Positions 2 to 45,975 of a stretch of 64,000 nucleotides of DNA are shown here, piece by piece (the first letter of the stretch is position 1; each line of letters begins with the position of its first letter). Source of the stretch: an uncultured Bacteroidales bacterium (GTDB lineage: Bacteria > Bacteroidota > Bacteroidia > Bacteroidales > UBA932); the NCBI GenBank assembly GCA_900316245.1, contig ONCE01000001.1, forward strand, positions 62,001 through 126,000, read 5' to 3'. Made by a program: the position numbers and the translations under genes. Below the pieces are notes generated by a model. That model saw only the letters and a program-made list of their open reading frames with translations, had not been told where the DNA came from and did not search any database.

Positions 2-475
2 CGCAAAATTGAGATCATCCCCCTGCAGGTGGTGGTTCGCAACCGCCTGGTGAACTCCGAAGCGGTACGTCTGGGTGTTGAGGACGGATTCAAGCCCGGC
101 AACACCATCGTGGAAATGCGTTACAACAACTCCGAGCTGGGAGACCCGCTCATCAACAAACACCACGCGGTGGCCCTGGGCTTGATGACTTACGAAGAGC
201 TGGCCCATGTGAAGCAGGTGGCTCTGAGGACCAACGAGCTGCTGGGAGAACTCCTGCACACGGTGGGCATTGAGCTGGTGGATATGCGGCTGGAATTTGG
301 CCGCGCCTCCGACAACGGCCACATCATCATTTCCGATGAGATTTCCCCGGATACCTGCCGTTTCTGGGACGAGGCCACCGGCGAGAAACTGGACAAGGAC
401 CGTTTCCGTCTGGACCTGAGCGATGTAGTGGCCAGCTACCGGGTAGTACTTGACAGACTTAATTCTATTGAATAA
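2..475 (+). CDS. purC: SAICAR synthase, C-terminal part (5' end outside window)
   Basis: Phosphoribosylaminoimidazole-succinocarboxamide synthase joins aspartate to CAIR in cytosolic purine synthesis. The frame is open from base 2, and the translation begins inside the conserved KIEIIPLQVVVRNR segment of the family, so the gene is truncated by the window edge and not broken. Later family features are present: a GDPLINKHHA segment near the middle and ISDEISPDTCRFWD near the end. The stop TAA shares a base with the purF ATG, indicating translational coupling in a purine operon. The identification is firm; the true start is not visible. Confidence 0.95.
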   Translation, partial: RKIEIIPLQVVVRNRLVNSEAVRLGVEDGFKPGNTIVEMRYNNSELGDPLINKHHAVALGLMTYEELAHVKQVALRTNELLGELLHTVGIELVDMRLEFGRASDNGHIIISDEISPDTCRFWDEATGEKLDKDRFRLDLSDVVASYRVVLDRLNSIE

Positions 476-1833
476 TGGGCGTACTTGCAGTATACGGCGT
501 TCAGGACGCATCTACTCTCATCTATTACGGGCTTCACAACCTCCAGCACAGAGGTCAGGAAGGAGCCGGCATCATTACCTTTGACGAGGAAGGCCTTCCT
601 CATTCTTACAGGGGACAGGGCCTTCTGAGTGAAGTATTCACCAACGGGGAGCTCAAGAAACTCCCCGGTAACCTGGGACTGGGCAGCGTCAAGTACGCCA
701 ATGCCTCCAAGGGCGGTCTCCAGAACGTGGAGCCGCTGTTCTTCCGCCACTATACCGGAGACTTTGCCATGGCCGGCGAAGGCAATCTGGTCAATGCTCC
801 CCAGCTCACCGCCTATCTGGAGAAGCAGGGCAGCCTGTTCCAAACCAGCACGGACAGTGAGATTCTGGCCCACCTGATCAAGAAGACGGGCAAGGAAGAT
901 CGCATTACCCGCCTCATCAAGGCTCTCAATATGCTGGAAGGCGGCTTCACCTTTGTGATCGTTACCAAGAACCGCATCTACGCCTGCCGGGACAAATACG
1001 GCATCAAGCCCCTGTGCCTGGGTAAACTGGGAGACGGCTACGTGGTCTCCAGCGAATCCTGTGCCTTTGGCATTATGGGGGCCGAATTTATCCGCGACAT
1101 CAACCCCGGCGAGGTTATTTGCCTGGACGAACACGGCGTTCGCAGCAACCTGTATTCCAAGTTCTCGCGCCACCGTATGTGCGCTATGGAATACATCTAT
1201 TTTGCCCGCCCGGACAGCGACATAGACGGCTGCAACGTGCACGCCTATAGAAAAGAGGCCGGCCGGCGCCTGGCCCGCGAATGCCCCGCCGAGGCCGATA
1301 TCGTAGTAGGTGTGCCGGAGTCCAGCCTCAGCGCCGCCATGGGCTATGCCGAGGAAAGCGGCCTCCCGTACGAGATGGGCCTCGTGAAGCACAAATATGT
1401 GGGCCGAACCTTCATCCAGCCCGTGCAGTCGATGCGCGAACTGGGCGTGAAGATGAAACTTTCTCCCGTTCGCAGCATCGTGGCCGGCAAGCGGATCGTC
1501 CTGGTGGATGATTCCATCGTGCGCGGTACCACTTCCCTGAAGATAGTCCGTATGCTGCGGGAGGCCGGTGCCAAGGAAGTGCACGTGCGCATTGCCAGCC
1601 CTATGATGAAGTACACCTGCCACTACGGAGTGGATACTTCTACCCCTGAGGAACTCCTCTGCTCTCACCGCACCCTGGAAGAGGCCTGCGAGGCCATCCA
1701 GGCCGATTCCCTGGGCTACCTGAGCCCGGAAAGCACCCGCGACTCCTGCTTTGGCTGCGCCGATCCCTGCCAGGCCTGCTTCACGGGCGAGTATCCTACC
1801 TTATTGTATGACGACTTTAACAGCGAAAACTAG
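475..1833 (+). CDS. purF: Amidophosphoribosyltransferase with apparently dead glutaminase domain
   Basis: PurF makes phosphoribosylamine from PRPP and glutamine, the first purine step. The 452-residue protein aligns over its length with the B. subtilis type. The phosphoribosyltransferase half looks intact: PRPP loop VLVDDSIVRGTTS, and four Cys positions matching the 4Fe-4S ligands (RHRMCAME, YTCHYG, and two in the SCFGCADPCQACF tail). The N-terminal class II amidotransferase half is odd. It begins MGVLAVYG where the family has (M)CGV, so the nucleophile Cys1 is replaced by the initiator Met; Lys73 replaces the conserved Arg, Asn76 the Thr, and Glu102 the oxyanion-hole Asn of the HNGN motif. 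Arg26 and Asp127 remain. An in-frame TGA at 469-471 rules out an upstream start with a Cys. It may use free ammonia or a partner amidotransferase. Confidence 0.93.
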   Translation: MGVLAVYGVQDASTLIYYGLHNLQHRGQEGAGIITFDEEGLPHSYRGQGLLSEVFTNGELKKLPGNLGLGSVKYANASKGGLQNVEPLFFRHYTGDFAMAGEGNLVNAPQLTAYLEKQGSLFQTSTDSEILAHLIKKTGKEDRITRLIKALNMLEGGFTFVIVTKNRIYACRDKYGIKPLCLGKLGDGYVVSSESCAFGIMGAEFIRDINPGEVICLDEHGVRSNLYSKFSRHRMCAMEYIYFARPDSDIDGCNVHAYRKEAGRRLARECPAEADIVVGVPESSLSAAMGYAEESGLPYEMGLVKHKYVGRTFIQPVQSMRELGVKMKLSPVRSIVAGKRIVLVDDSIVRGTTSLKIVRMLREAGAKEVHVRIASPMMKYTCHYGVDTSTPEELLCSHRTLEEACEAIQADSLGYLSPESTRDSCFGCADPCQACFTGEYPTLLYDDFNSEN

Positions 1834-1836
1834 TAT

Positions 1837-2868
1837 ATGGCAAAATCTTACGAACAGTCCGGCGTAAATCTGGAAGCCGGTTACGAAGTGGTGCGACGCA
1901 TCAAGCAGCACGTGGCTTCGACCTCCCGTGTGGGCTCGATGGGCAACATCGGTTCTTTTGGCGGTATGTTTGACCTTTCCGTCCTGGGCATCAAGGAGCC
2001 CGTCCTGGTATCCGGTACCGACGGCGTGGGCACCAAGCTCAAGATTGCCTTTGCTATGGACAAGCACGACACCATCGGCATCGACGCCGTGGCTATGTGC
2101 GTGAACGACGTCCTCGCCCAGGGAGCCGAGCCTCTCTTCTTCCTGGACTACGTGGCCCTGGGACACAACATTCCCGCCAAGGTGGAAGCCATCGTGGCCG
2201 GTGTGGCCGAAGGCTGCCGCCAGGCCGGCTGCGCCCTGGTGGGCGGCGAGACCGCCGAGATGCCGGGTATGTACTCCGACGGCGAGTACGACATTGCCGG
2301 TTACACCACGGGCGTTGTAGAGAAATCCAAGCTCATTGACGGCTCCAAGGTCAAGGTGGGAGATGTGCTGGTGGGCATTGCCTCCACGGGCGTGCACTCC
2401 AACGGCTTCAGCCTGGTTCGCAAGATTGTGGCCGATGCCGGCCTGGACTATCAGGACGCCATTCCCGAGTTTGGCGGCCGCAAGCTGGGTGAGGTCCTCC
2501 TGACCCCCACCCGCATTTATGTGAAGCAGATGCTGTCCGTGATCCGTCAGTGTGACGTACACGGTGTGGCCCACATCACCGGCGGCGGCTTTGACGAGAA
2601 CATTCCCCGTGTGCTCCGTCCCGGTCAGGGCCTGGAGATTCACGAGGGTACCTGGGAAATCCTTCCCGTGTTCAAGATGCTGGAGAAGTGGGGCGGCGTT
2701 CCGCACCGCGAGATGTTCAACATCTTCAATATGGGTATCGGTATGATTGCCGTAATGGACGAGGCCGAAGCCCCCAAGGCCATCCAGATCCTGGAGGCCT
2801 GCGGCGAAAAGGCTTCCGTCATTGGCAAGGTAACGGATAAGGAAGGCGTAAACATCATCCTGAAATGA
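1837..2868 (+). CDS. purM: Phosphoribosylformylglycinamidine cyclo-ligase (AIR synthetase)
   Basis: Cytosolic purine enzyme that closes the imidazole ring of FGAM using ATP to give AIR. The 343-residue length is normal. Family motifs include GTDGVGTKL (about 60-68), the GGETAEMPG loop (about 136-144), ASTGVHSNGFSLVRK and the HITGGGFDENIPR segment. It starts 3 bp after purF and its TGA overlaps the purN ATG (ATGA), consistent with a polycistronic, coupled operon. Confidence 0.97.
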   Translation: MAKSYEQSGVNLEAGYEVVRRIKQHVASTSRVGSMGNIGSFGGMFDLSVLGIKEPVLVSGTDGVGTKLKIAFAMDKHDTIGIDAVAMCVNDVLAQGAEPLFFLDYVALGHNIPAKVEAIVAGVAEGCRQAGCALVGGETAEMPGMYSDGEYDIAGYTTGVVEKSKLIDGSKVKVGDVLVGIASTGVHSNGFSLVRKIVADAGLDYQDAIPEFGGRKLGEVLLTPTRIYVKQMLSVIRQCDVHGVAHITGGGFDENIPRVLRPGQGLEIHEGTWEILPVFKMLEKWGGVPHREMFNIFNMGIGMIAVMDEAEAPKAIQILEACGEKASVIGKVTDKEGVNIILK

Positions 2869-3431
2869 AGTCTCTAGCGGTCTTTGCCAGCGGAACCGGC
2901 ACCAACTTCGTGGCCATTGCCAAGGCTTGCGCTGCGGGCGTGATTGACGCCCGGGTGGCGCTCCTGGTATGCGACAAGCCCGGAGCCCCCGTGCTGGACC
3001 GTGCCAGGGAGCTGGGAGTGGATACCTTTGTCTTCAGCGCAAAGGATTACGCCTCCAAGGCCGATTATGAGGCGGAGATTGTAAAGCGCCTGGATGCCTT
3101 GAAGGTAGATCTGGTGTGCCTGGCCGGCTATATGAGAATAGTAGGGGAGACCCTCCTGCAGGCCTATGAAGGCAAGATCATCAACATCCATCCTTCGCTG
3201 CTGCCGGCTTTCCGGGGCGCCCACGCCGTGGAACAGGCGGTCGCCTATGGCGTGAAGGTGTACGGCATCACCATCCACTGGGTCAACTCCGACCTGGACG
3301 GGGGCAAGATCATTGCCCAGCGTGCCTTCCCCTACGAAGGCTCCGACCCTGCCGAGGTTCACGCTATCGGCCAGAAGATCGAACATGAATTATATGTAGA
3401 AACCATTAATAAAGTATTATGCGAGCGTTAG
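2865..3431 (+). CDS. purN: Phosphoribosylglycinamide formyltransferase
   Basis: Transfers formyl from 10-formyl-THF to GAR in purine synthesis. The 188-residue protein has the PurN fold signature: an FASGTGTNF phosphate loop near the start, catalytic Asn107 and His109 in INIHPSLLPAF, and Asp145 in SDLDGGKII. Its first codon overlaps purM by 4 bp and its end overlaps purH by 13 bp. The 10-formyl-THF it needs is supplied through folD at the end of the same operon. Confidence 0.96.
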   Translation: MKSLAVFASGTGTNFVAIAKACAAGVIDARVALLVCDKPGAPVLDRARELGVDTFVFSAKDYASKADYEAEIVKRLDALKVDLVCLAGYMRIVGETLLQAYEGKIINIHPSLLPAFRGAHAVEQAVAYGVKVYGITIHWVNSDLDGGKIIAQRAFPYEGSDPAEVHAIGQKIEHELYVETINKVLCER

Positions 3432-4948
3432 TTAGTGTAAGTGACAAGACTGGGCTGGTAGAATTTGTCCAGGGTCTTGTAGATCTGGGTTGGGAAATCA
3501 TCGCCACCGGCGGAACCCAGAAACTGCTGGAAAGCAAAGGTGTAAAGACCATCGGTATCAGCGAGGTCACCGGATTCCCGGAGATCTGCGACGGCCGCGT
3601 CAAGACCCTGCATCCCAAGGTGCACGGCGGCATCCTGGCCCGCCGCGACGTTCCCGCCCATATGGAAACCCTTAAGGAGAACGGTATCCAGACCATCGAA
3701 CTGGTTTGCGTGAACCTCTATCCCTTCAAGCAGACCATCGCCAAGGAAGGCGTAACCCTGGAGGATGCCATCGAGAACATCGACATTGGGGGCCCTTCCA
3801 TGGTTCGCAGCGCTGCCAAGAACTGGAAGGACGTGACCATCGTCTGCGACCCTTCCGACTACGGCAAGGTGTTGGAGGAACTCAAGGCCAATGGCAAGAC
3901 CTCCGACCAGACCCGTCTGCAGCTGTCGGCCAAGGCCTATACCCATACGGCCGAGTATGATGCCTGCATTGCCACTTATATGCGTGCCCAGGCCGGCCTC
4001 AATGAGAAGCTCTTCCTGGAGTACGACCTCAAGCAGGGTCTCCGCTACGGCGAGAACCCTCACCAGAGCGCCAAGTTCTACGCTACCCTGGAACCCGCCC
4101 CGTTCTCCCTGGCCTTCGCCACCCAGATCCAGGGCAAGGAACTTTCCTATAACAACATCCAGGACGCCAACGCTGCCCTCAATGTGCTGCGTGACTTTGA
4201 AGAGCCCTTCTGCGTGGCCCTCAAGCATATGAACCCTTGCGGCGCCGCCGTGGGCAAGACCATCGAGGAAGCCTGGCAGGCCGCCTATGAGGCCGACAAG
4301 GTGAGCATCTACGGTGGTATCGTGGGTGTGAACCGCACCCTCACCGCCGAGGTTGCCGCCGGTATGAAGCCCATCTTCCTGGAGATTGTGATTGCCCCCG
4401 ATTTCACCCCTGAAGCCCTGGAAATCCTTTCCACCAAGAAGAACCTCCGCGTAATGAAGGTGGATATGACCCGCGACGGAGCCTCCGTGCCCCAGTTCAT
4501 CAGCGTGAACGGCGGTATGCTGGCCCAGCAGCTGGATACCCAGGTGGAGACCGTTACCCCCGAGATGTGCGTGACCAAGGTGAAGCCCACCGCCGCCCAG
4601 CTGGCCGATGCCAACTTTGGCTGGAAGATTGTGAAGCACGTCAAGTCCAACGCCATTGCCGTTGTGCGTGACAACCACACCATCGGTATCGGCGCCGGCC
4701 AGACCAACCGCGTAGGTTCTGCCGAGATTGCCCTGAACGAGGCCAAGAATGCCGGCTTCACCGAGGGTCTGGTGCTCGCTTCCGACGGCTTCCTGCCCTT
4801 CGACGATACCGTGGCCCTGGCCGCCAACTACGGTGTAACCGTGATTGTGCAGCCCGGCGGCAGCATCCGCGACGAGGACGCCATCAAGAAGGCCGACGAA
4901 CTGGGTATCTGCATGCTCTTCACGGGAGTAAGACACTTCAAACATTAA
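3419..4948 (+). CDS. purH: Bifunctional AICAR transformylase / IMP cyclohydrolase
   Basis: Catalyses the last two steps to IMP. The 509-residue length fits the family. The N-terminal part (about 1-190) is the IMP cyclohydrolase domain, with SVSDKTGLVEF, GGTQKLLE and GGPSMVRSAAKN. The rest is the AICAR transformylase domain, with YGENPHQSA, the catalytic KHMNPCG stretch and VVRDNHTIGIGAGQTNRV. It overlaps purN by 13 bp and is followed 3 bp later by purD. The long antisense open frame here is a codon-bias artefact. Confidence 0.97.
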   Translation: MRALVSVSDKTGLVEFVQGLVDLGWEIIATGGTQKLLESKGVKTIGISEVTGFPEICDGRVKTLHPKVHGGILARRDVPAHMETLKENGIQTIELVCVNLYPFKQTIAKEGVTLEDAIENIDIGGPSMVRSAAKNWKDVTIVCDPSDYGKVLEELKANGKTSDQTRLQLSAKAYTHTAEYDACIATYMRAQAGLNEKLFLEYDLKQGLRYGENPHQSAKFYATLEPAPFSLAFATQIQGKELSYNNIQDANAALNVLRDFEEPFCVALKHMNPCGAAVGKTIEEAWQAAYEADKVSIYGGIVGVNRTLTAEVAAGMKPIFLEIVIAPDFTPEALEILSTKKNLRVMKVDMTRDGASVPQFISVNGGMLAQQLDTQVETVTPEMCVTKVKPTAAQLADANFGWKIVKHVKSNAIAVVRDNHTIGIGAGQTNRVGSAEIALNEAKNAGFTEGLVLASDGFLPFDDTVALAANYGVTVIVQPGGSIRDEDAIKKADELGICMLFTGVRHFKH

Positions 4949-4951: not shown

Positions 4952-6202
4952 ATGAAGACAGTGCTAGTAATAGGAGGCGGCGGGCGTGAGCATGCCATAG
5001 TTGACGCGCTCAGCCGTTCTCCCCAGGTTGAAAAGATCTACTGCGCCCCCGGCAATGCCGGAATTGGGGAACAGGCCGTCAACGTGCCCCTCAAGGACAC
5101 CGACGTGGAGGGCCTCAAGGCCTTTGCCATCGAGCACAAGGTAGACCTGACGGTGGTGGGCCCCGAAGCGGCCCTGGCCGCCGGCATCGTGGATGCCTTC
5201 CGGGCGGCCGGCCTCAAGATCTTCGGCCATACCAAGGCTGCTACGGCCATCGAGAGCTCCAAGGAATTTGCCAAGAAGCTGATGGACAAGTACGGCATCC
5301 CTACGGCTGCCTACCGGGGTTTCTCGGATTATGAGGAGGCTTTGGCCTATGTATCGGCCCGTCCTTTCCCGGCGGTGCTCAAATACGATGGCCTGGCTGC
5401 CGGAAAGGGTGTTGTGATTGCCCAGGATCTTCAGGAAGCCAAGGCCGCCCTGGCCGATATGCTCCTGGACCATTCCTTTGGGCAGGGCAGGGTAGTGGTG
5501 GAAGATTTCCTCACCGGTCCCGAGTTCTCTTTCCTGTGCTTTGTAGACGGCTCCCGCGTGTATCCCATGCCGCTTTCGCAGGATCACAAGCGCGCCTTTG
5601 ACGGCGACAAGGGTCCCAACACCGGCGGAATGGGCGCCTATACCGGCCTGCCGTTCATCACGGAAGAGGACCGGGAGTTTGCCTTCAAGGAGATTCTCTG
5701 CAAGACCGCCCAGGCTATGGTTTCGGAGGGATTACCCCTTTCCGGCGTGCTCTACGGCGGCCTTATGAAGACGCCCCAGGGCATCAAGGTCATCGAGTTC
5801 AACGCCCGTTTCGGGGACCCCGAGACCGAGGTAGTGCTGCCCCTGCTGCAAAGCGACATCTACGATATCTTCGAGGGGGTGGCAACCGGCCGTGAAGTGG
5901 AGCAGCCCGTCTGGGCCGATGGCGTGACGCTGGGTGTGGTCCTGGCTTCCAAAGGCTATCCGGGCCACTACGAGAAAGGCGTGGCCATTAACGGTATGCA
6001 CCGCGTGGGCACCCAGGTATACCATATGGGTACGGCCCTGAAGGACGGTCAGCTGGTTACCAACGGCGGCCGTGTGCTTATGGTCATTGCCGCCGGTACC
6101 GATCTGGCCGAAGCCCGCCGCAAAGTATACGCCGAGGTGGAGCAGATCCAATGTGACAACCTCTTCTACAGAAAAGACATAGCACACATAGCATTTGAAT
6201 AA
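4952..6202 (+). CDS. purD: Phosphoribosylamine-glycine ligase (GAR synthetase)
   Basis: ATP-grasp enzyme converting phosphoribosylamine and glycine to GAR, the step straight after PurF. The 416-residue protein has the N-terminal VIGGGGREHAI motif, the ATP-grasp KYDGLAAGKGV segment, the PLSQDHKRAFDGDKGPNTGGMGAY signature and the metal-binding EFNARFGDPE. It lies 3 bp from both purH and folD, inside one operon. Confidence 0.97.
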   Translation: MKTVLVIGGGGREHAIVDALSRSPQVEKIYCAPGNAGIGEQAVNVPLKDTDVEGLKAFAIEHKVDLTVVGPEAALAAGIVDAFRAAGLKIFGHTKAATAIESSKEFAKKLMDKYGIPTAAYRGFSDYEEALAYVSARPFPAVLKYDGLAAGKGVVIAQDLQEAKAALADMLLDHSFGQGRVVVEDFLTGPEFSFLCFVDGSRVYPMPLSQDHKRAFDGDKGPNTGGMGAYTGLPFITEEDREFAFKEILCKTAQAMVSEGLPLSGVLYGGLMKTPQGIKVIEFNARFGDPETEVVLPLLQSDIYDIFEGVATGREVEQPVWADGVTLGVVLASKGYPGHYEKGVAINGMHRVGTQVYHMGTALKDGQLVTNGGRVLMVIAAGTDLAEARRKVYAEVEQIQCDNLFYRKDIAHIAFE

Positions 6203-21841: not shown

Positions 21842-23083
21842 TTAGGAATGCGCACGGCGGATGGCGGGGATGTTCTCCAGATCGGCCTTCTTTTCGCCGG
21901 GGGCTACGCAAAGGGCGGGCTTCTTCTCGGTGGTGAAGTCAAAGCGCTTGGCGTTGTCCGAGTTGTTGTAACCGATCTTGATGGTTTCGGCGCCGATGGG
22001 GATGGAGAGCTCGCCCTCGTGGTGCGGCTCCTCCCACTGGAAATCGTCGTCAATGATGACCAGGTTGCCCAGGTCCTTGTTGAGGCCCAGTCCGCCCAGG
22101 TCCATCTCGAAGCCCGTCACGATGGCGGTGATGCGCACCTTGTCTCCAAATTCGGGATCGTCGTCCCAGATGATGCCCTTCTTGAAGTGGTTGGCGTCGC
22201 CGGTGTACTCGGTAATCATATCGTCAATGCGCTCGAGGTCGCTCATCTTGGCGCCGCGCTCGTTGTTGCCGGTGGTGATGTTGATGAGGACGTTCTTGGC
22301 GGTCTTCAGGTCAAAGTCGTTCAGCAGCGGGCTCTCGAAAGCGCCCTTCACGGCCTCTTCCAGGCGGTCGTTGCCGGAACCCTCGCCGCTGCCCATCAGG
22401 GCCATACCGGAGTTGCGCATCATCTTGCACACATCCTGGAAGTCCACGTTGATGTAGCCGGGGCAGTTGATCACCTCGATGATGCCCCTGACGGCGGTAG
22501 CCAGCACCTCATCGGCCTTGGGGAAGGCTTCCTGGATGAGGGTGTCGCCAAAGAACTGATACAGTTTCTCGTTGTTGATGATCAGGAGGGAGTCTACGTT
22601 CTTCTCCAGTTCGTGGATGCCGTCCACGGCCTTGGACTGGCTCTCGTTGCCTTCGTTGCGGAAGGGGATGGTCACTACAGCCACCGTGAGGATGCCGCGG
22701 TCCTTGGCCATCTTGGCTATGACCGGTGAAGCGCCCGTTCCGGTACCGCCACCCATACCGGCGGTGATGAACAGCATCTTGGTGCCGCAGTCCAGGACCT
22801 TGGCGGCAATCTCGTCCTGGCTTTCCAGGGCGGCGTTGCGGCCGGCGGTGGGATCGGTGCCGGCTCCCAGGCCGTTCTGACCCATCTGGATCTTCACGGG
22901 AACCTCGCTGGAGGCCAGGGCCTGCGCATCCGTGTTGCAGACAATGAAGCTGCAGCCCAGGATGTTCTGGCGGTACATATAGTTCACGGCATTGCAGCCG
23001 CCGCCACCTACGCCAATCACTTTGATAATGGCATTCTCGTCGGTCCAGTCGGTGGGCTTGATGTTGAATTTATCGTATTTCAT
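21842..23083 (-). CDS. ftsZ: Cell division GTPase FtsZ
   Basis: Tubulin-like GTPase forming the Z ring. The 413-residue protein has the GVGGGGCNAV start, the tubulin signature GGGTGTGASP (111-120) and a conserved T7 loop NVDFQDV. The far end is a linker followed by the ENIPAIRR C-terminal peptide that binds FtsA and other partners, then a short AHS tail. It is the last dcw gene, 3 bp after ftsA. Confidence 0.98.
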   Translation of the reverse strand: MKYDKFNIKPTDWTDENAIIKVIGVGGGGCNAVNYMYRQNILGCSFIVCNTDAQALASSEVPVKIQMGQNGLGAGTDPTAGRNAALESQDEIAAKVLDCGTKMLFITAGMGGGTGTGASPVIAKMAKDRGILTVAVVTIPFRNEGNESQSKAVDGIHELEKNVDSLLIINNEKLYQFFGDTLIQEAFPKADEVLATAVRGIIEVINCPGYINVDFQDVCKMMRNSGMALMGSGEGSGNDRLEEAVKGAFESPLLNDFDLKTAKNVLINITTGNNERGAKMSDLERIDDMITEYTGDANHFKKGIIWDDDPEFGDKVRITAIVTGFEMDLGGLGLNKDLGNLVIIDDDFQWEEPHHEGELSIPIGAETIKIGYNNSDNAKRFDFTTEKKPALCVAPGEKKADLENIPAIRRAHS

Positions 23084-23086
23084 GGC

Positions 23087-24541
23087 TTACTCCTCCTTGT
23101 TTTCGTCATCGTAAAAATCCAGGGCGCTGCTGCGGATCTTGGTCCAGGCAATGCTCAGGATGCCGGGCCGTTTGGGCATCTTGACCTTCTGGGTCTTGGG
23201 CTTTTCTTTCTTGACGGCCTCGCCGAAGTCCTCGTCCGGAAGCAGCTTTCCGGTTTCTCCGGTCTCCAGCTCCTCGTCGGAGATGGTGTTGCGGGTCTCG
23301 TCGGTCACTTCCACCTCCATCATCTCCTCTTCGGGAACTTCCGGAGCCTTTTCCGGCAGGGTCACGCAGTCGGGGAGGCTGTCCTCCTTGGCGCTGAGCA
23401 CCATACCGATGGCCGATGTGGCAGCGGCAGAATAGGCGCGGCTGCCCACGGGGGCCGAGAAGAGGGAATAGCGCGTGGTGCCGCGGCGTACCTCGTAGCC
23501 GGACATCTCCTTCACCAGCGGAACCAGGTTGGTGAGTTCGGCGCCGCCGCCGGTGAGCACGATACCGCTGCGCAGGGAGTTCTGCAGCCCGCTCTCCTGG
23601 ATGTAATAGAGGACGGCCTCCACAATCTCGCGGCAACGGCAGTCGATGATTTCGGAAATATAGCGTACCGGAACCTCCTTGTACGGTTCGGTCACTCTGA
23701 TCTGAAGAACCTTCTCGCTCAGGGTAGCCAGCTTGCCGGGCATGCAGGCGCCGAAGCGCTTCTTGATCTTTTCGGCCAGGTCCTCGGAGATGGAGCATTC
23801 CGTGCGGATGTCTCCGGTGATGACCTTGCCGCCGAACGGGATGGAAGCGTAGTAGCGCATAATGCCGCCGTGGTAGATGGCCAGCGAAGTAACACCGGCG
23901 CCTACATCTACGAGGGCCACGCCGCTGGAGCGTTCCTCCTCGGTGAGAACGGTGCGGGCCACCACCTCGGGCAGGAAGTATTTCTTGGCAATGGAAATGC
24001 CCAGCTGGTTGAAGATCTTGTCCAGGGCGGTGGTGGCGGTGCGGTTGCCCAGGAACACCTTGAAGTTGCCTTCCAGGGAACTGCTCAGGGTACCTACCAC
24101 CTCTTCCTCCACCAGTTGGATCTCGTCGTCAATGGAGAACGACTGGGCCACGGCTCCGTAGATAATCTGCTTCTCGGGGTTGTCCAGCGGATAGGTCTCC
24201 AGGGCGATGGATTTGAGGGTGGCTACTTCTTCGGCCGTAATGTAGTCGTCCGGCCGGGAGCGGTCAATGCGGGCCGATGCCGTCACCTGCGCCACCTCGC
24301 TGCGGGGCATACCCACCACCACCTGCAGGATCTGGATCATCAGTTCCCTTTCGGCCTCCTGGACAGCTTCCTTGAGCTTCTGGGATGCCTTCATAGGATT
24401 GGCGATGAGGCTGGCGCGGATACCCTCCGAAGGGGTTTCCTTGTAGTAGACAATCTGGACGTCGTCGCCGGTCACGCGCGCTACGCACAGGCCGAACTTG
24501 GAACTGCCCAGGTCAATGGAGGCTATGTACTTTTCTTCCAT
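23087..24541 (-). CDS. ftsA: Cell division protein FtsA
   Basis: Actin-like ATPase that tethers FtsZ to the membrane. The 484-residue protein begins with IASIDLGSSKFGLCVARV (phosphate 1), and has VDVGAGVTSLAIYHGG (phosphate 2) and IVLTGGGAELTNLVPL (adenosine). Compared with E. coli FtsA it has a long acidic and basic C-terminal extension (from about residue 395) ending in a KRPGILSIAWTKIRSSALDFY segment that could be the membrane-binding amphipathic helix, before a DDENKEE tail. It sits between ftsQ and ftsZ as usual. Confidence 0.96.
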   Translation of the reverse strand: MEEKYIASIDLGSSKFGLCVARVTGDDVQIVYYKETPSEGIRASLIANPMKASQKLKEAVQEAERELMIQILQVVVGMPRSEVAQVTASARIDRSRPDDYITAEEVATLKSIALETYPLDNPEKQIIYGAVAQSFSIDDEIQLVEEEVVGTLSSSLEGNFKVFLGNRTATTALDKIFNQLGISIAKKYFLPEVVARTVLTEEERSSGVALVDVGAGVTSLAIYHGGIMRYYASIPFGGKVITGDIRTECSISEDLAEKIKKRFGACMPGKLATLSEKVLQIRVTEPYKEVPVRYISEIIDCRCREIVEAVLYYIQESGLQNSLRSGIVLTGGGAELTNLVPLVKEMSGYEVRRGTTRYSLFSAPVGSRAYSAAATSAIGMVLSAKEDSLPDCVTLPEKAPEVPEEEMMEVEVTDETRNTISDEELETGETGKLLPDEDFGEAVKKEKPKTQKVKMPKRPGILSIAWTKIRSSALDFYDDENKEE

Positions 24542-24554
24542 ATATTATAGTTTT

Positions 24555-25343
24555 TTATTTCTTGCAAACTACTTGTTTCCGGTAGCGGAGGTCTACCTTG
24601 GAGTAATAGCCCGCATTCTTGGAAGGGGCAATGCTCCGGTAGTAGGTGGTCAGGAGCTTGAATTTCTCGTCAATCCTCACAGGCGGGCCGAAGAGGAATT
24701 CCTCCCGTCCCTGCACGGGATAGAGAACCAGCTCTCCGCCCTGCCGGACGGTAAGCCGCCGGATGTCCTTTTCCCAAACCTTTCCTTTCATATAGGAGAC
24801 CAGGCCGATGACGCGGCTCAGCCAAAGCGCCTCCTCGGGATTCTCCAGATAGCCCTTGAAGCCCTTGGGAACGTTGAAGGGCAGCTTCCCACTCACTACC
24901 GGCACGGACACGCTGCCGCGCGACTGCAGGGGGAAGAGGTAACCGGTCTCGTCGGCGTAGCAGGCGTTCTGCCCGTTCTCCAGCCGGATTACCGGTTCCC
25001 GCTGGCTCAGCGCCACGTGCAGCACGCCGTCGTCCGTGATCCAGGCCTCGGCGTCGCGCACAGCGCTGTGGGAGCAGATGAGCTTTTCTATGCGGGTGAG
25101 GTCCACGCTGTCCAGCGGAAGGCCCGCATAGGCCCCATATTCCTTTTCCAGCCAGTCCTGGACATCGGCCTTGGCTACAAAGCGGCGCTTCAGGGAGTCG
25201 GTTACCGTCACTTGCAGCTTGCCCTTGCCCTGGCACGTACGGGTACGCAGTTCGCGCCGGGCCATCCCGGTGGTGAGCACCCAGACGGCCACACAGACGC
25301 CTACAAGCAGCAGTCCTAGAATATGACGGTAGATACGCTTCAT
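24555..25343 (-). CDS. ftsQ: Cell division protein FtsQ
   Basis: Bitopic divisome protein. The 262-residue sequence has a short cytoplasmic start, one transmembrane helix (about 8-26, ILGLLLVGVCVAVWVLTTG), then a POTRA-like region with VTVTDSLKRRFVAKADVQDWLE and an FtsQ domain. Similarity of FtsQ proteins is low, so the call rests on topology, size and its place between murC and ftsA. It overlaps murC by 4 bp (ATGA). Confidence 0.88.
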   Translation of the reverse strand: MKRIYRHILGLLLVGVCVAVWVLTTGMARRELRTRTCQGKGKLQVTVTDSLKRRFVAKADVQDWLEKEYGAYAGLPLDSVDLTRIEKLICSHSAVRDAEAWITDDGVLHVALSQREPVIRLENGQNACYADETGYLFPLQSRGSVSVPVVSGKLPFNVPKGFKGYLENPEEALWLSRVIGLVSYMKGKVWEKDIRRLTVRQGGELVLYPVQGREEFLFGPPVRIDEKFKLLTTYYRSIAPSKNAGYYSKVDLRYRKQVVCKK

Positions 25344-26689
25344 AAGCGGCTCTTCAGGAGTTCGGTAATGGGTTCAATAAAACGGTCAATGTTGCCGGCT
25401 CCAAAGGTGGCCAGCACGTCAATGGGCTCGTCGGCCAGGTAGTCCATCAGCTCCTCTTTCTTGAGCAGCACCTTCTCCGGGGCGGTTACGTCCTTGAAAA
25501 TCATTTCGGACGTCACGCCGGGAATGGGCTCCTCGCGGGCGGGGTAGATGTCCAGCAGGATGAGTTTGTCCACGGCTGAAAGGGCCTTGGCAAACTCGGC
25601 TGCGAAGTCCCGCGTGCGGGTATACAGGTGGGGCTGGAAGATGCCGGTGATCTTTCGGCCCGGGAAAATGTCACGTATGGACGTGATGGCGCTGGTCAGT
25701 TCCGACGGATGGTGCGCGTAGTCGTCTATGTACGACAGGGTAGGGGTGTTCACGTGCACCTCCAGGCGGCGCTTGACGCCTTCAAACGTGCCGATGGCGG
25801 CCTTCACGGCTTCCGGCTCCAGGCCGTAGGTGAGGGCTATGGCGGCTGCGGCAATGCTGTTTTCCGCATTCACCCAGCCGGGGGCGCCTACGCGGATGTC
25901 CTTCAGGATGCCACCCGGCCAGTGGAGGTCGTAGTGGAAGTAGCCGCAGGCGTCGGGATGGGGATTTTCGGCATAGAAATGGGCCGAAGAATCCGTATAG
26001 TGATAGGTTAGAACTTTCGCTTTTGTATGCTCCTGCGTCACAGGGGCGCCTTTCTTGACGATGACGGTGCCGCTTACCTGGCTGGCAAAGGCCCGGAAGG
26101 CTTCCACCACGTGCTCGTAGTCTCCGTAGATGTCCAGGTGGTCGGCCTCCACGGAGGTGATCACGGCAATCTCGGGATAGAGCTGCAGGAAGGAACGGTC
26201 AAACTCGTCGGCCTCCACCACCACGGTGTTGTTCTTGGACATCAGGAGGTTGGTGCCGTAGTTGCGGGAAATGCCGCCCAGGAAGGCGCTGCAGCCTTCG
26301 CCCGTCTGGGTGAGGATATGGGCGGTAAGGGTGGAGGTGGTGGTTTTGCCGTGGGTGCCGGCTACGGCCAGGCAGCGCTGTCCACGGGTAATTTCACCCA
26401 GGGTGCGGGAGCGCTTGAGCACGGTATAGCCCGTGTCCAGCACTTTGCGCAGTTCCTGGAGGTCGGCGGGAATGGCGGGGGTGTACACCACCAGGGTCTC
26501 GGCCTTGTCCACGGGGACCAGGTCCGGGCGGTCTTCGTAGTGCACGGCTATGCCTTCGGCCTCCAGTTTGGCGGTGAGGTCGGAGGGCGTGCGGTCGTAT
26601 CCGGCCACGTTATAGCCCTTGAACTTGTAATACCGGGCAATGGCACTCATGCCGATGCCGCCTATGCCTATGAAATATACGTTCTTCAT
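25340..26689 (-). CDS. murC: UDP-N-acetylmuramate-L-alanine ligase
   Basis: Adds L-Ala to UDP-MurNAc, the first amino-acid step of peptidoglycan. The 449 residues show the Rossmann start VYFIGIGGIGMSAIA, the ATP loop GTHGKTTT (111-118), EADEFDRSFL and the DDYAHHPSE segment. It overlaps murG and ftsQ by 4 bp each. Confidence 0.97.
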   Translation of the reverse strand: MKNVYFIGIGGIGMSAIARYYKFKGYNVAGYDRTPSDLTAKLEAEGIAVHYEDRPDLVPVDKAETLVVYTPAIPADLQELRKVLDTGYTVLKRSRTLGEITRGQRCLAVAGTHGKTTTSTLTAHILTQTGEGCSAFLGGISRNYGTNLLMSKNNTVVVEADEFDRSFLQLYPEIAVITSVEADHLDIYGDYEHVVEAFRAFASQVSGTVIVKKGAPVTQEHTKAKVLTYHYTDSSAHFYAENPHPDACGYFHYDLHWPGGILKDIRVGAPGWVNAENSIAAAAIALTYGLEPEAVKAAIGTFEGVKRRLEVHVNTPTLSYIDDYAHHPSELTSAITSIRDIFPGRKITGIFQPHLYTRTRDFAAEFAKALSAVDKLILLDIYPAREEPIPGVTSEMIFKDVTAPEKVLLKKEELMDYLADEPIDVLATFGAGNIDRFIEPITELLKSRL

Positions 26690-27816
26690 ACCAGCTTGTA
26701 AATCTCGTCACAAATGATCTGGGCGGCGTTGCGAAGGGCCATGGCCTCTGCGTTTTTGCTCAGCTGCTCCATCCGCTCGGGGCTGTGGAGCAGGCCCAGG
26801 GCCGTGGGCAGGAGGTCATCCAGGGCCTCGCTGTCCTTGACCAGCATAGCGGCTTTCTTACGCACCAGCGCCATCGCGTTGTGGGTCTGGTGGTCTTCGG
26901 CCACGTTGGGGGAAGGCACAAAGACCGTGGCCTTGCCCATGGCGCAGAGCTCGGAGACCGTGCTGGCGCCGCTGCGGGAAATGACCACGTCGGCCGCTGC
27001 GTAGGCCAGGTCCATCCGGCCTATGAAATCAAAGTGCTTGATGCCTTGCACGTGGGAGTGGGCCTGCATAAAGTTGTCCACTTCCTTCTTATAGTACTTG
27101 CCGCACTGCCAGATCACTTCCACGCCTTCGCCGTCCTGGCAGCCGTCCTGGATCCAGTGCTCCATCGCGTGGTTGAGGGTACCGCTGCCCAGGCTTCCGC
27201 CCACTACGAACAGGTGTTTCTTTTCAGGAGACAGGCCGAAGAATTCCATCGCCTCGGCCCTCATCTCGGGCGTGGCGGGCTGGGAGAGAATCTCGCGGAT
27301 GGGGTTGCCGCTCATCACAATCTTCTCGGCCGGGAAGAAGCGTTCCATCCCTTCGTAGGCCACGCAGATGCTCTGCACGCGGCTGCCCAGAATCTTGTTG
27401 GTAAGACCGGCAAAGCCGTTCTGTTCCTGGATGAGGGCGGGGATCTTCATTCCCGTGGCAGCCCACAGCAGGGGAGCGCTGGCATAACCGCCCACACCCA
27501 CCACTACGTCGGGCTTGAAGTCTTTCACAATGCGGCGGGCGTGCGCCACGCTCTCCAGCACGCGGAACGGAACGGAGAGGTTGTTCATAAGGTTCTTCAG
27601 GGACAGGCGTCTCTGCATACCGGCTATGGGAAGGCCCACGATCTTGTAGCCTTCGGCCGGTACCTTTTCCATTTCCATCTTTCCTTCGGCCCCTACAAAC
27701 AGGATTTCCGTCTGGGGGCACAGCTGCTTGAGCTTGTTGGCAATGGACACGGCCGGGAAGATATGGCCTCCCGTGCCGCCGCCGCTGATGATTACTCGTA
27801 AAGGTTTGTATTCCAT
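26686..27816 (-). CDS. murG: UDP-GlcNAc:lipid I N-acetylglucosaminyltransferase
   Basis: GT28 enzyme making lipid II at the inner membrane. The start chosen is the ATG at 27816, which shares a base with the ftsW stop; an 8-residue longer frame exists but begins inside ftsW. The 376-residue protein has VIISGGGTGGHIFPAVSIAN, GVGGYASAPLLWAA, ALIQEQNGFAGLTNK and the donor-site segment SRSGASTVSELCAMGKATVFVP. It is in the dcw operon. Confidence 0.97.
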   Translation of the reverse strand: MEYKPLRVIISGGGTGGHIFPAVSIANKLKQLCPQTEILFVGAEGKMEMEKVPAEGYKIVGLPIAGMQRRLSLKNLMNNLSVPFRVLESVAHARRIVKDFKPDVVVGVGGYASAPLLWAATGMKIPALIQEQNGFAGLTNKILGSRVQSICVAYEGMERFFPAEKIVMSGNPIREILSQPATPEMRAEAMEFFGLSPEKKHLFVVGGSLGSGTLNHAMEHWIQDGCQDGEGVEVIWQCGKYYKKEVDNFMQAHSHVQGIKHFDFIGRMDLAYAAADVVISRSGASTVSELCAMGKATVFVPSPNVAEDHQTHNAMALVRKKAAMLVKDSEALDDLLPTALGLLHSPERMEQLSKNAEAMALRNAAQIICDEIYKLV

Positions 27817-29177
27817 TATACCGTACTGTCTTGGGTCCAACTGTTGGCGGCCTCGGCTTCCAGTTCGGCCTTCTTGCGGGCCATATTGTCACGGGCGTCC
27901 TTGGAGATGCTCAGCAGGATGCCGAACACCACGCTGAAGACCAGGAAGGCGTTGGTTCCGTGGCTCACCAGCGGAAGCGTCTGGCCCGTCTGGGGTACCA
28001 GCGGCATATGCACGTTCACGCACATATGCATAAAGGCCTGTCCCGTGACCAGGATAATGAGACCGGTCACTATGATTTTATCGTAATAATTGTCGCACAT
28101 CCGCGCCACCAGGGTTCCGCGGGCAAAGAGGCTGAAGTAGAGCAGGATGAGGATGAGGGCTCCAAAGAGGCCCGTCTCTTCCACAATGAAGCTGAACATA
28201 TAGTCTCCGAAGATAACCGGCACCTGGTACTTCTGGGTGCTGTTGCCTATGCCCTTTCCAAAGGCGCCGCCTTCCTTGATGGCCAGGAGCGCCCCCACGG
28301 GCTGGTCCAGCTTGCCGCGGGCCTTGAGCCAGTCCTGGCTCTCGCGCGGGCTGTTGAGGAGAATCTTCATAGTGGCGTCGTCGTCCTGGGTGATGCGGCC
28401 TATGGCGGTGCCGAAGCGGCTTCCCTCCAGCCAGCCGGCCTTGTAGGCGGCAAACATTCCTCCGATGGCTATGGCTATGACCACGGCAAAGATGCCCACG
28501 TCCTTCATATCCAGGCCGCCCACCATCACCATCAGCACCATAATGGCGCCAATGAACAGGGCCGATGAGTTGGAACCCATCATCACCATCAGGCTCACGG
28601 CACCGATGGGGAAGTAGATGTACAGCACTTTCTGCCAGCTTTCCTTGCCCAGGAAGGCCAGGCGTTCGAACTTCTCCGACAGCTGCTTGGCGCGTTTGAA
28701 ATCTCCGTTCTTGAAGGTGTTCAGGGCCCAGCCCAGATACATAATCATAAACAGCTTGATGTACTCGTATATGTGCACCTGGAAGCCTCCCACGATGAGG
28801 ATACGGCGGGCACCGTTGATTTCACCGGCGCGCACCACGCCCAGGTTCAGATTGAGTACCAGAATGGTCAGCAGCACGAAACTTACCCCAAATCCCCATT
28901 TGGACAGGGCGTGGAGCCAGTCCTGCCGGCCAAAGAAATACAGTCCGAAGATGATGACAAAGCCCATCCCTACCACCTTGAGCTGACTCACCATAATGGA
29001 CACGCGGTCTATTCCGTGACCTTCGTTTACCAGACGGGGGGTAGACGAGAACACGGAAATGACAGAGATGAGCATCAGGAACAGGGCAATCAAAAAGATC
29101 ACCTTGTCTCCGCTGAAGCGGTCCATCAGCTGGGTCAGGTAGCCCAGGAAGCCGGTTTTGGTCTTTTCTTCGGCCAT
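27816..29177 (-). CDS. ftsW: Lipid II polymerase FtsW (SEDS family)
   Basis: Integral membrane septal glycosyltransferase of the SEDS family. The 453 residues have about ten hydrophobic segments and the conserved loops: GARRILIVGGFQVHIYEYIKLFMI (SxQPSE-like region, diverged here), KEGGAFGKGIGNSTQKYQVP and the C-terminal MPLVPQTGQTLPLVSHGTNAFLV. The late part varies from the more usual LPxTGxxLPxxSxGGSS. It is 3 bp from murD. Confidence 0.95.
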   Translation of the reverse strand: MAEEKTKTGFLGYLTQLMDRFSGDKVIFLIALFLMLISVISVFSSTPRLVNEGHGIDRVSIMVSQLKVVGMGFVIIFGLYFFGRQDWLHALSKWGFGVSFVLLTILVLNLNLGVVRAGEINGARRILIVGGFQVHIYEYIKLFMIMYLGWALNTFKNGDFKRAKQLSEKFERLAFLGKESWQKVLYIYFPIGAVSLMVMMGSNSSALFIGAIMVLMVMVGGLDMKDVGIFAVVIAIAIGGMFAAYKAGWLEGSRFGTAIGRITQDDDATMKILLNSPRESQDWLKARGKLDQPVGALLAIKEGGAFGKGIGNSTQKYQVPVIFGDYMFSFIVEETGLFGALILILLYFSLFARGTLVARMCDNYYDKIIVTGLIILVTGQAFMHMCVNVHMPLVPQTGQTLPLVSHGTNAFLVFSVVFGILLSISKDARDNMARKKAELEAEAANSWTQDSTV

Positions 29178-29180
29178 ATC

Positions 29181-30515
29181 TTAGAGTTTGCGGACGGCAG
29201 CCTTGAACTGCTCGCCCCGGTCTTCGTAATTCTTGAAGAGGTCAAAGCTGGCGCAGCAGGGGCTCAGGAGCACCACGTCTCCGGGCTGGGCCAGTTCGGC
29301 CGATTTGCGCACGGCCTCCTCTGCACTTGCGGTATCGGTAATGATAGGGACCAGTTTCTCGAAGGCGGCGTGAATCTTGGTGTTGTCCACACCCAAACAC
29401 ACGATGGCTTTCACCTTCTCCTTCACCAGGTCGTTGAGCACGCTGTAGTCGTTGCCCTTGTCGGTTCCGCCCACAATCCAGATCACGGGCTTCTTCTGGC
29501 ATTCCAGGGCATACCAGGCGCTGTCTACGTTGGTGGCCTTGGAGTCGTTGATGTACAGCACGTCCTTGATGCTCAGCACGGGCTCCAGGCGGTGCTCGAT
29601 GGGCTGGAACGTGGCCAGCGACTTGCGGATGACCTCGTTCTCGATGCCCGTAGCCTTGGCGGCCAGGGCTGCGGCCATGGAGTTGTAGATATTGTGCTTG
29701 CCGCCCAGGGCCAGTTCTTCCAGGAAGAGGTCGGTTTCCTCCTTTTCGTAGCGGATGACCATCTTGCCGTTCCGGAGGAAGGCACCCTGCTGCACCTCTT
29801 TCTCCTGGGAGAAGGGCAGCATCTTGCAGCGCAGGATGATGTTGTTCAGATGGCCCACGGTGATGGCATCGTCGGAGTCGAAGATGAAGCAGTCGTCCTG
29901 CGTGAGGTTGCGGGTGATGTTGAACTTGGCGGCCACGTAGTTTTCCATCTTGTGGTCGTAGCGGTCCAGGTGGTCCGGAGTGATGTTGGTGATGATGGCA
30001 ATGTCCGGCTTGAAGTCGTAGATGTCGTCCAGCTGGAAACTGCTGATCTCCAGCACATAGTAGTCAAAGTGCTCGGTGGCCACCTGATAAGCGTAGCTCT
30101 TTCCGATGTTGCCGCCCAGGCCCACGTTGAGGCCGGCGTTCTGCAGCAGGTAATAGATGAGGCTGGTGGTAGTGGTCTTTCCGTTGGATCCGGTGATGCA
30201 GATCTTCTTGGCGCTGTCGTAGCGGCTGGCGAACTCAATCTCGGACACGATGCGGATGCCCTTCTCACGGATCTTCTGAACCATCGGAACGGTGCCGGGG
30301 ATACCGGGGCTCTTGACCACCTCGTCGGCGTTCAGGATCAGTTCCTCGGTATGCTGGCCCTGCTCGAAGGGAATCTCCCATTTCTGAAGGGTCTTCACAT
30401 AGTCTTCCTTGATCTGTCCCTTGTCGCTCAGGAACACATCGAATCCCTTAACTTTTGCCAATACGGCTGCGCCTACTCCGCTTTCGGCGCCACCTAAAAC
30501 AACAACGCGTGCCAT
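29181..30515 (-). CDS. murD: UDP-MurNAc-L-Ala:D-glutamate ligase
   Basis: Adds D-Glu to the muropeptide precursor. The 444 residues include the N-terminal UDP-binding VVVLGGAESGVGAAVLA, the ATP loop GSNGKTTTT (109-117), LEISSFQLDD, and a late VLLSPCCASFD that fits the MurD LSPACASFD motif. Dcw operon member. Confidence 0.97.
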   Translation of the reverse strand: MARVVVLGGAESGVGAAVLAKVKGFDVFLSDKGQIKEDYVKTLQKWEIPFEQGQHTEELILNADEVVKSPGIPGTVPMVQKIREKGIRIVSEIEFASRYDSAKKICITGSNGKTTTTSLIYYLLQNAGLNVGLGGNIGKSYAYQVATEHFDYYVLEISSFQLDDIYDFKPDIAIITNITPDHLDRYDHKMENYVAAKFNITRNLTQDDCFIFDSDDAITVGHLNNIILRCKMLPFSQEKEVQQGAFLRNGKMVIRYEKEETDLFLEELALGGKHNIYNSMAAALAAKATGIENEVIRKSLATFQPIEHRLEPVLSIKDVLYINDSKATNVDSAWYALECQKKPVIWIVGGTDKGNDYSVLNDLVKEKVKAIVCLGVDNTKIHAAFEKLVPIITDTASAEEAVRKSAELAQPGDVVLLSPCCASFDLFKNYEDRGEQFKAAVRKL

Positions 30516-30519
30516 GTAA

Positions 30520-31812
30520 TTATCTAATCTTTAATAATGCTAACGTACTAACTGCCAATAGGATCTGGACAATCCAGAAACGGACGGTAATCTTTGCCTC
30601 GTGCTGCGCAGGAACCGGCTTGGGGAAGAGGACCGGACCTTCCGGAGCCTTCTTGTCCTGGTAGTGGTGGTGCAGCGGAGCCATGCTCCAGATGCGCTTG
30701 CCGGTGCCCGTGCGCTTGCGGGTAAACTTGAAGTAACCCCGCTGGAGCAGCACGGAGAGGCTCTCGGCAAAGAACACTCCGCACAGCAGCGGGAGCAGCA
30801 GTTCCTTGCGCATCAGCACGGCGCTTACGCCTATGATGCCGCCGATGGTCAGGCTGCCCGTATCTCCCATAAACACCTGGGCCGGGAAGGAATTGTACCA
30901 GAGGAAGCCCACCAGGGCGCCCACAAAGGCACTCATAAAGATGGCTATCTCTCCGGATCCCGGTATATACATAATGTTCAGGAAGTTGGAATCGATGAGG
31001 TTGCCGCCCAGCCAGGCTATCACGCCCAGCACCACTCCCACTACGGCCGATGTCCCCGCCGCCAGGCCGTCCAGGCCGTCGGTGAGGTTGGTTCCGTTGG
31101 AGCAGGCGGTGATGACCAGCACAATCATAAGCACGTAGATGGCCCATTTGCAGTACCAGCCCCAGGCGCCCTTGACGGGGGAGAGCCAGCGGTAGTCAAA
31201 CTCGTGGTTCTTCACGAAGGGGATGGTGGTCTTGGTGCTCTTGACCACGTTCTCCTGTTGGAAGCGGCCGCTGGTAACGGTGGTTTCCGTCTCCAGGGTG
31301 CGCTCTATGCTTTCTTTCACCATCACTTTTTCACGGACCACGATGTCCGGGCTCATCCACACGGTAAGGCCGATGACAAAGCCCAGCACCACCTGGGCAA
31401 TGAGCTTGCCTTTCTCGCTCATTCCTTCCTTGCGGTGCTTGAACACCTTGATGTAGTCGTCGGTGAAGCCCAGCGCACCGCACCAGACCGTGCTCAGCAG
31501 AAGCAGGAGCACATAGATGTTGGTGAGGTCGCAGAACAGCAGGACGCCGCTCAGGATGCTCAGGATGATGATGATGCCGCCCATCGTGGGGGTGCCCTTC
31601 TTCTGGATCTGGTCGGCCAGGCCCAGGTCGCGCACCGTTTCGCCAATCTGCTTGCTGCGCAGCCAGTCAATGATCTTGTTGCCGGCAAACAGGGATACCA
31701 GCACGGCCGTCACCGCCGCCATCATAGCGCGGAAGCTCAAGTAGTGCATCAGGCCGATGCCGGGAAAATCGACGCCGATTTTCTCCAGGTACTGAAACAG
31801 ATGGTAAATCAT
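30520..31812 (-). CDS. mraY: Phospho-MurNAc-pentapeptide transferase
   Basis: Ten-helix membrane enzyme that makes lipid I on undecaprenyl phosphate. The 430 residues contain the MraY signatures KKGTPTMGGIIII, ALGFTDDYIKV (catalytic DD), NGTNLTDGLDGLAAG and the GTGKRIWSMAPLHHHYQ segment. It is longer than E. coli MraY (360) because of an insertion of about 60 residues around 165-225 (VKESIERTLETETTVTSG region), a feature I recall in Bacteroidetes MraY. It overlaps murE by 4 bp. Confidence 0.97.
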   Translation of the reverse strand: MIYHLFQYLEKIGVDFPGIGLMHYLSFRAMMAAVTAVLVSLFAGNKIIDWLRSKQIGETVRDLGLADQIQKKGTPTMGGIIIILSILSGVLLFCDLTNIYVLLLLLSTVWCGALGFTDDYIKVFKHRKEGMSEKGKLIAQVVLGFVIGLTVWMSPDIVVREKVMVKESIERTLETETTVTSGRFQQENVVKSTKTTIPFVKNHEFDYRWLSPVKGAWGWYCKWAIYVLMIVLVITACSNGTNLTDGLDGLAAGTSAVVGVVLGVIAWLGGNLIDSNFLNIMYIPGSGEIAIFMSAFVGALVGFLWYNSFPAQVFMGDTGSLTIGGIIGVSAVLMRKELLLPLLCGVFFAESLSVLLQRGYFKFTRKRTGTGKRIWSMAPLHHHYQDKKAPEGPVLFPKPVPAQHEAKITVRFWIVQILLAVSTLALLKIR

Positions 31813-42711: not shown

Positions 42712-42716
42712 AAACA

Positions 42717-42724
42717 CAAAGGTA
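42717..42724 (-). promoter_or_regulatory. -7 element for the lipoprotein-rpoN operon
   Basis: TACCTTTG on the - strand, 5 bp from the ATG at 42711, so the mRNA would be leaderless. It is divergent with the miaB -7 box 13 bp away. Confidence 0.55.
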
Positions 42725-42737
42725 GTGATTTTTTTCG

Positions 42738-42745
42738 TATCTTTG
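42738..42745 (+). promoter_or_regulatory. -7 element abutting the miaB start codon
   Basis: TATCTTTG followed by CACCCG and the ATG at 42752. It shares TATCTTTGCACCC with gltX. Confidence 0.6.
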
Positions 42746-42751
42746 CACCCG

Positions 42752-44065: not shown

Positions 44066-44102
44066 GGCTGCTCCGGGCAGACCTATTTTCCGATAAAATT
44101 TG

Positions 44103-44110
44103 TATCTTTG
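44103..44110 (+). promoter_or_regulatory. -7 element for the OadA-like gene
   Basis: TATCTTTG, an exact TAnnTTTG match, 27 bp upstream of the start at 44138. Confidence 0.55.
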
Positions 44111-44137
44111 TGGATACGACAAATTGCACATTATCAT

Positions 44138-45922: not shown

Positions 45923-45975
45923 GAAACGTAAATTTTTCTTACGAAAAGTCGGGTAAAACCCACAAAATACCATCT

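Follow-up and report, generated by a model that had tools for sequence, protein, structure and literature searches.

A Bacteroidales PurF lacking its glutaminase nucleophile that probably uses free ammonia

The purine operon of an uncultured Bacteroidales bacterium encodes a PurF in which the glutamine site has been dismantled while the PRPP site is intact, and the protein probably synthesizes 5-phosphoribosylamine with PRPP and free ammonia as substrates, having lost glutamine cleavage. PurF is the textbook enzyme of the glutamine-dependent first step of purine synthesis. The gene was found in the window, the 64,000-nucleotide stretch of DNA analyzed here (Table 1). Support comes from its residues, its single origin, its place in the operon, the pattern of selection and 17 near-complete relatives in which no other PurF-like gene was found. 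An initial annotation of the window had left three options, namely free ammonia, a separate glutaminase or a second, complete PurF elsewhere in the genome, and judged from sequence the first of these appears to be the best supported. The counterpoint is a complete PurF in the window's own genome and in 21 others of the 50 that were compared.

Table 1. Features of the window and of related loci (L-numbers).
Feature	Position	Strand	Basis
purC, cut by the window start; complete copy at L272:7760-8476	2..475	+	name assumed from sequence features
purF without glutaminase nucleophile, 452 aa	475..1833	+	ORF; TIGR01134; alignment to solved PurFs
Start codon standing where catalytic Cys1 would be	475..477	+	Met in 109/109 no-Cys proteins, Cys in 47/47 relatives
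His71 to Ser	685..687	+	window sequence, residue census
Arg73 to Lys (Arg73 contacts a bound glutamine analogue in an excerpt of PMC7953260)	691..693	+	window sequence, residue census
Tyr74, retained in all	694..696	+	alignment, residue census
Thr76 to Asn	700..702	+	window sequence, residue census
His101-Asn102 to Gly-Glu; acid at 102 in 109/109	775..780	+	window sequence, residue census
Fe-S ligand Cys236	1180..1182	+	sequence; ligand role assumed
PRPP loop VDDSIVRGTTS (residues 344-354)	1504..1536	+	sequence
Fe-S ligand Cys382	1618..1620	+	sequence; ligand role assumed
Fe-S ligands Cys432 and Cys435 (CQAC)	1768..1779	+	sequence; ligand role assumed
purM	1837..2868	+	name assumed from sequence features
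purN	2865..3431	+	name assumed from sequence features
purH	3419..4948	+	name assumed from sequence features
purD, consumer of phosphoribosylamine	4952..6202	+	name assumed from sequence features
CarA-like small subunit of carbamoyl phosphate synthase, catalytic Cys to Gly	L273:9706-10788; L276-L298		

Glutamine site and PRPP site of the window PurF

The window PurF, with the N-terminus MGVLAVYG, scores 455.1 bits against the NCBIfam purF model TIGR01134 (cut-off 350). The initial annotation had recognized the gene correctly and had given its range as 475-810, which covers only the first quarter. Alignment to Bacillus subtilis PurF (PDB 1ao0, 1gph) runs from residue 2 onward, Met1 occupies the place of Cys1 and the propeptide is absent. 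The purF ATG overlaps the purC stop and is preceded in frame by TGA (469-471) and then ATA; no upstream start can therefore supply the Cys, a possibility that had been named as fatal to the original claim. The operon has the order purL-purC-purF-purM-purN-purH-purD, in which the names purC, purM, purN, purH and purD are ones that we presume from sequence features and the identity of purL is also backed by a search of the genomes for PurL.

To define the altered site, 109 distinct no-Cys proteins from several MAG series were examined residue by residue. All of them carry Met1 and Asn76, none carries His71 or His101, and residue 102 is always acidic (Glu in 70, Asp in 39). Arg73 is gone in 106 of the 109, where residue 73 is Lys (86), Gln (17), Met (2) or Cys (1), with Arg in the other 3. 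Ordinary Cys-bearing relatives possess the usual residue at positions 1, 71, 73, 76, 101 and 102 in 47 of 47 cases. In the simulations described in an excerpt of PMC7953260, Arg73, Thr76 and Gly102 (E. coli numbering) touch the bound glutamine analogue; the window protein lacks Arg73 and Thr76, together with Asn102. Arg26, Gly27, Tyr74, Gly103, Asp345, Asp346 and Arg350 are kept in every no-Cys protein, and Asp127 in 98. Equally invariant are Cys236, Cys382, Cys432 and Cys435, which we take to be the Fe-S ligands of PurF. The residues reported at the outset, that is the missing nucleophile, Lys73, Asn76, Glu102, the intact PRPP loop and the Fe-S cysteines, were all found as described, and Ser71 and Gly101 add to them.

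Among PRPP-domain positions that are at least 97% conserved in Cys copies, 57 of 61 stay in at least 90% of no-Cys copies, compared with 35 of 51 positions of the glutaminase domain (39 thinned Cys copies against 35 thinned no-Cys copies). A third PurF class, CysNNG, comprises seven Cys-bearing proteins (L014, L015, L017, L018, L207, L209 and L215) with Asn76, Asn101 and Gln104. These read ANNGQ instead of AHNGN, so that their glutamine site is partly degenerate with the nucleophile kept, and purL is present in the same locus in 7/7.

A wrong start, a sequencing error or a binning artefact has a negligible chance of explaining the missing Cys. As far as titles tell, the assemblies are metagenomic, and an excerpt of PMC3261824 describes 58 archaeal purF genes of which 3 had start-site errors, but the in-frame stop lies two codons 5' of the ATG, the 109 distinct proteins, drawn from several MAG series, agree and altered residues are also located far from the start. 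In the reading frames of the no-Cys genes, a Cys occurs somewhere before Met1 in 9 of 109 and at the place of Cys1 in none. The upstream stop and the 109 proteins sharing the dead site rule out a sequencing or start-site error, in agreement with the earlier argument that several substitutions together speak against one.

Descent, spread and copy number

In a tree of PurF, 35 no-Cys proteins form one clade (SH-aLRT 100) nested among Cys-bearing PurFs; the tree was built by a quick method without bootstrap from 81 thinned rows, with active-site columns removed. A single loss of the Cys, one change, is sufficient. The initial annotation had proposed to look for the loss in relatives, and it is indeed shared by the 109 proteins. 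Gene order is likewise stable, with purC directly preceding the no-Cys purF in 109/109 and purM directly following in 106.

Selection acts differently on the two domains. In no-Cys copies, omega is 0.068 for the PRPP domain and 0.192 for the glutaminase domain; the 24 nearest Cys copies give 0.064 and 0.093, respectively. The glutaminase domain is thus relaxed two-fold, all values being taken from pairs of similar dS (about 1, rough) that are not independent and comprise 2764 no-Cys and only 20 Cys pairs. The nearest Cys copies are those scoring over 580 against the window PurF, and some of them lie away from other pur genes; they replace an earlier set that pooled all Cys classes (0.366/0.219, 93 pairs). 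These values indicate that constraint on the synthase part is undiminished and that the glutaminase part is relaxed yet not free. Purifying selection on the glutaminase domain, combined with the retention of Asp127 in most copies, argues for some role beyond dead weight.

To investigate the distribution of the no-Cys PurF, we scanned a genome collection with the window protein and obtained 434 relatives. The best 80 of the 434, selected by similarity to the query, show 77-98% identity, and each of them has this dead site. Of these best 80, 63 carry a rumen or ruminant label in their titles: RUG (32), which we take to be the rumen MAG series of PMC6785717, goat (9), deer (7), buffalo (6), yak (3), reindeer (2), sheep (2), cattle (1) and rumen (1). 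Among 400 genomes sampled from the window's genus, at least 127 possess a match aligning from residue 1, with identity down to 65%. Judging from its habitat, size and number of species, this genus is probably Cryptobacteroides. An order-wide sample of 295 near-complete genomes from 177 genera gave a match at E 1e-100 in 11 genomes and none in 284; two genomes of the window's genus are among the matches listed, and only the window's own genome yielded the no-Cys class. Eight new loci from this sample (L310-L317, one of them of the window's genus) all keep the Cys, GHVRY and HNGN. Other Bacteroidales carry PurF-like proteins that also lack the Cys and begin with MGGFFG (L026-L033); these are only 30-34% identical, and the two scanned (L027, L028) score 188 and 183 bits, below the TIGR01134 cut-off of 350.

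The second PurF with Cys1 that the initial annotation proposed to search for exists in the window's genome. It is a complete protein of 462 aa (L002), 49% identical and encoded behind pyrG, with the motifs ...HEECGVFGCYG, GHVRYPT and AHNGN. Redundancy, which had been offered as one explanation, thus fits this genome; as a general explanation it is ruled out by genomes without a second copy. For copy number we used 50 genomes with the no-Cys PurF that are at least 90% complete (90-99%), out of at least 127 and including the window's. A second canonical PurF is present in 23 and absent in 27. Of the 23, 22 were read and all have the Cys, the remaining one (G022) consisting of fragments with the N-terminus missing. 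Ten of the 27 hold a long PurF-like protein of 586-627 aa, and the two that were read have the Cys. The other 17 of the 50 yielded no PurF-like protein besides the no-Cys copy in the TIGR01134 search, which returned GlmS or nothing. Genome incompleteness would account for an expected 2.6 misses of one given gene in 50, with a maximum of 13 in 1e6 simulations. The 17 include G369, with 9% contamination, and G249, with two no-Cys copies. By position, G249 corresponds to a MAG (JAEEVG) in which two contigs (L053, L055) carry differing no-Cys purF genes, both starting MAVLAVYG, as would result from a duplication or from a bin mixing two strains. Long Cys-bearing PurF-like proteins L171 and L172 come from the window's genus.

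The two-copy state of the window's genome is real and could suggest a non-catalytic or regulatory role for the no-Cys paralogue, with phosphoribosylamine made by the Cys-bearing PurF. We consider this very improbable: the protein retains the PRPP loop and the Fe-S cysteines, its PRPP domain is constrained like that of the nearest Cys copies, and in 17 genomes it is the sole PurF-like protein found, its gene kept beside pur genes. A borrowed glutaminase is somewhat less improbable, though still unlikely. Here, the no-Cys PurF would form a mixed oligomer with a Cys-bearing PurF or, elsewhere, receive ammonia from another amidotransferase such as PurL. This explanation is favored by the second PurFs of 23 of 50 genomes, among them the window's (all 22 read have the Cys), and by a PurL with an intact glutaminase in the same operon, but 17 of the 50 genomes lack any second PurF-like protein and the second PurFs fall into several unlike clades in the tree, a poor fit to one co-evolved partner. 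Moreover, no stand-alone amidotransferase and no candidate for a separate glutaminase gene was seen among the loci of the pur operon. A PurL search of the 27 genomes that lack a second canonical PurF was positive in 26, the exception being G231.

CarA and other amidotransferases

A second amidotransferase of these genomes shows a comparable change. In G173, pyrC, a CarA-like gene and a full carB are arranged divergently from the pur operon. The active-site motif of CarA is GICLGHQ; the CarA-like protein of G173 (CarA') reads GIGLGMEAIG at this site, and ordinary CarA copies in this set read GICLGNQ, GVCLGSQ and GICMGNQ. Relatives of CarA' with at least 54% identity were found in 27 of 165 near-complete genomes, split over two contigs in G088. 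The catalytic Cys is replaced by Gly in 23 (four of which also have His replaced by Gln) and by Ser in one, and three keep it. Twenty of the 23 genomes with the Gly form also possess the no-Cys PurF; the remaining three are G190, which has a Cys-bearing PurF (L200), G332, in which the PurF match is no better than E 2.5e-49, and G425, which lies outside the PurF census.

CarA' thus occurs in 20 of 50 genomes with the no-Cys PurF and in 3 of 115 comparison genomes, in which PurF was only partly read (G425 outside the census); the Fisher p value of 1.6e-9 ignores descent. Since both genes share a contig and are no more than 10 kb apart in 19 of the 20 genomes (different contigs in G242), the association says little beyond co-inheritance. 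The Cys-to-Gly CarA is the sole CarA in five genomes (G165, G188, G231, G369 and G425; family model, E 1e-25). In three of these, G188, G231 and G369, the no-Cys PurF is also the sole PurF and no GlmS was found. We regard the change in CarA as a parallel decay in support of ammonia use by the no-Cys PurF.

Glutamine use in general continues, as judged from PurL, whose glutaminase Cys is kept in 145/145 loci that include the PurL C-terminus (pattern match in 144, L105 seen separately; several loci per genome in some cases, and some from genomes with a Cys-bearing PurF), and from two GlmS proteins that were read and retain the Cys. The intact PurL means that glutamine is still consumed in the same pathway, which counts against ammonia use by PurF. 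Loci of five genomes that we take from motif and length to be PyrG-, GuaA- and HisH-like also keep the Cys, and together with PurL they rule out a general loss of glutaminases. GlmS (E 1e-60) was found in only 128 of 400 genomes of the genus and 59 of 150 near-complete ones, and was not found in the window's own genome. Its presence in 27 of the 50 genomes with the no-Cys PurF, compared with these 59 of 150, shows no link between the no-Cys PurF and GlmS loss. NagB was above the cut-off in 13 of 15 genomes tested and could make glucosamine 6-phosphate from ammonia in reverse; alternatively, the cells could import amino sugars.

Proposed function and relation to known systems

A dismantled glutamine site and an intact PRPP site, in a protein that is the sole PurF in many operon-bearing genomes, indicate that the no-Cys PurF should use ammonia. 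The N-terminal domain would persist, folded and still under selection, as a scaffold for the ammonia path, with the old glutamine site filled or opened by residue 73, which is basic or polar in most copies, and by the invariant acid at 102. This acid may hold ammonium, or it may only fill the pocket together with residue 73. Ammonia reaches millimolar levels in the gut and rumen, and it is plausible that this supply is sufficient for the no-Cys PurF; abundant gut ammonia may have made the loss of the glutaminase tolerable. The window's genome would then hold the ammonia-type enzyme in the operon and a glutamine-type PurF behind pyrG, and in many relatives the putative ammonia-type PurF is the only one found. 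Such chemistry has precedent in E. coli, where Cys1 mutants of PurF lose glutamine use and can still use ammonia (Mei and Zalkin, 1989, as cited in an excerpt of PMC3261824), and rumen microbes use ammonia as a nitrogen source according to an excerpt of PMC12021266.

Compared with the enzymes of B. subtilis (1ao0) and E. coli (1ecc), the window PurF has the same length, both domains, the PRPP loop, the Fe-S ligands and a place in the pur operon, and differs in lacking the Cys nucleophile, His71, Arg73, Thr76, His101, Asn102 and the propeptide. The PurF' proteins of Crenarchaeota are similar in that they lack the N-terminal Cys and are encoded beside purine genes, and passages of Brown et al. 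(2011; PMC3261824) suggest ammonia-dependent activity for them, as a proposal only. As these passages describe it, each crenarchaeal genome also has a Cys-bearing PurF alongside PurF', whereas 27 of the 50 genomes compared here lack a second canonical PurF. The loss described here is nested in Bacteroidales PurF and likely has a separate origin, the archaeal proteins being known to us by description. Among top-ranked literature matches, none treats inactive PurF glutaminases in Bacteroidota, and PMC3261824 alone treats a Cys-less PurF. A Cys-less PurF is thus known from Crenarchaeota; the present one is bacterial, often alone and probably separate in origin.

For CarA', the land-vertebrate carbamoyl phosphate synthetase I offers a parallel, as a glutamine amidotransferase that works with ammonia only, its catalytic Cys having been lost (excerpt of PMC7657897). 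By analogy, CarA' may work in the same way; with respect to PurF, the vertebrate enzyme differs in fold and pathway. Vertebrate carbamoyl phosphate synthetase I depends on N-acetylglutamate.

A broader scenario is tentative and, on balance, doubtful. According to this scenario, the genus would have moved the entry of purine synthesis and, in part of the genus, of pyrimidine synthesis to free ammonia, with PurF and CarA keeping dead glutaminase scaffolds and GlmS missing from most members; acid 102 of PurF would capture ammonium where the old channel opens, and the protein would be a dedicated ammonia enzyme instead of a crippled glutamine enzyme.

If ammonia use by the no-Cys PurF is correct, free ammonia can carry the entry step of purine synthesis in nature, which the available text of PMC3261824 only proposed for Crenarchaeota. 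Combined with the parallel change in CarA, it would tie nucleotide synthesis to the ammonia-rich gut. The clade is natural and of single origin, with a glutaminase dead for so long that its proteins have diverged to about 65% identity, and it would offer a ready experiment on the ways in which amidotransferases lose and rebuild a nitrogen source. Many gut relatives have lost the glutamine-cutting part of the enzyme and kept the product-building part, suggesting, from sequence, that they may make building blocks of DNA and RNA straight from ammonia.

Elsewhere in the window, three long ORFs on the minus strand have no NCBIfam match at E 1e-40 (42308-45985, 1225 aa; 52638-54323, 561 aa; 58469-61066, 865 aa). 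Positions 21842-35134, also on the minus strand, hold an ordinary division and cell wall cluster with ftsZ, ftsA, murC, an ftsW-like gene, murE and a penicillin-binding protein gene.
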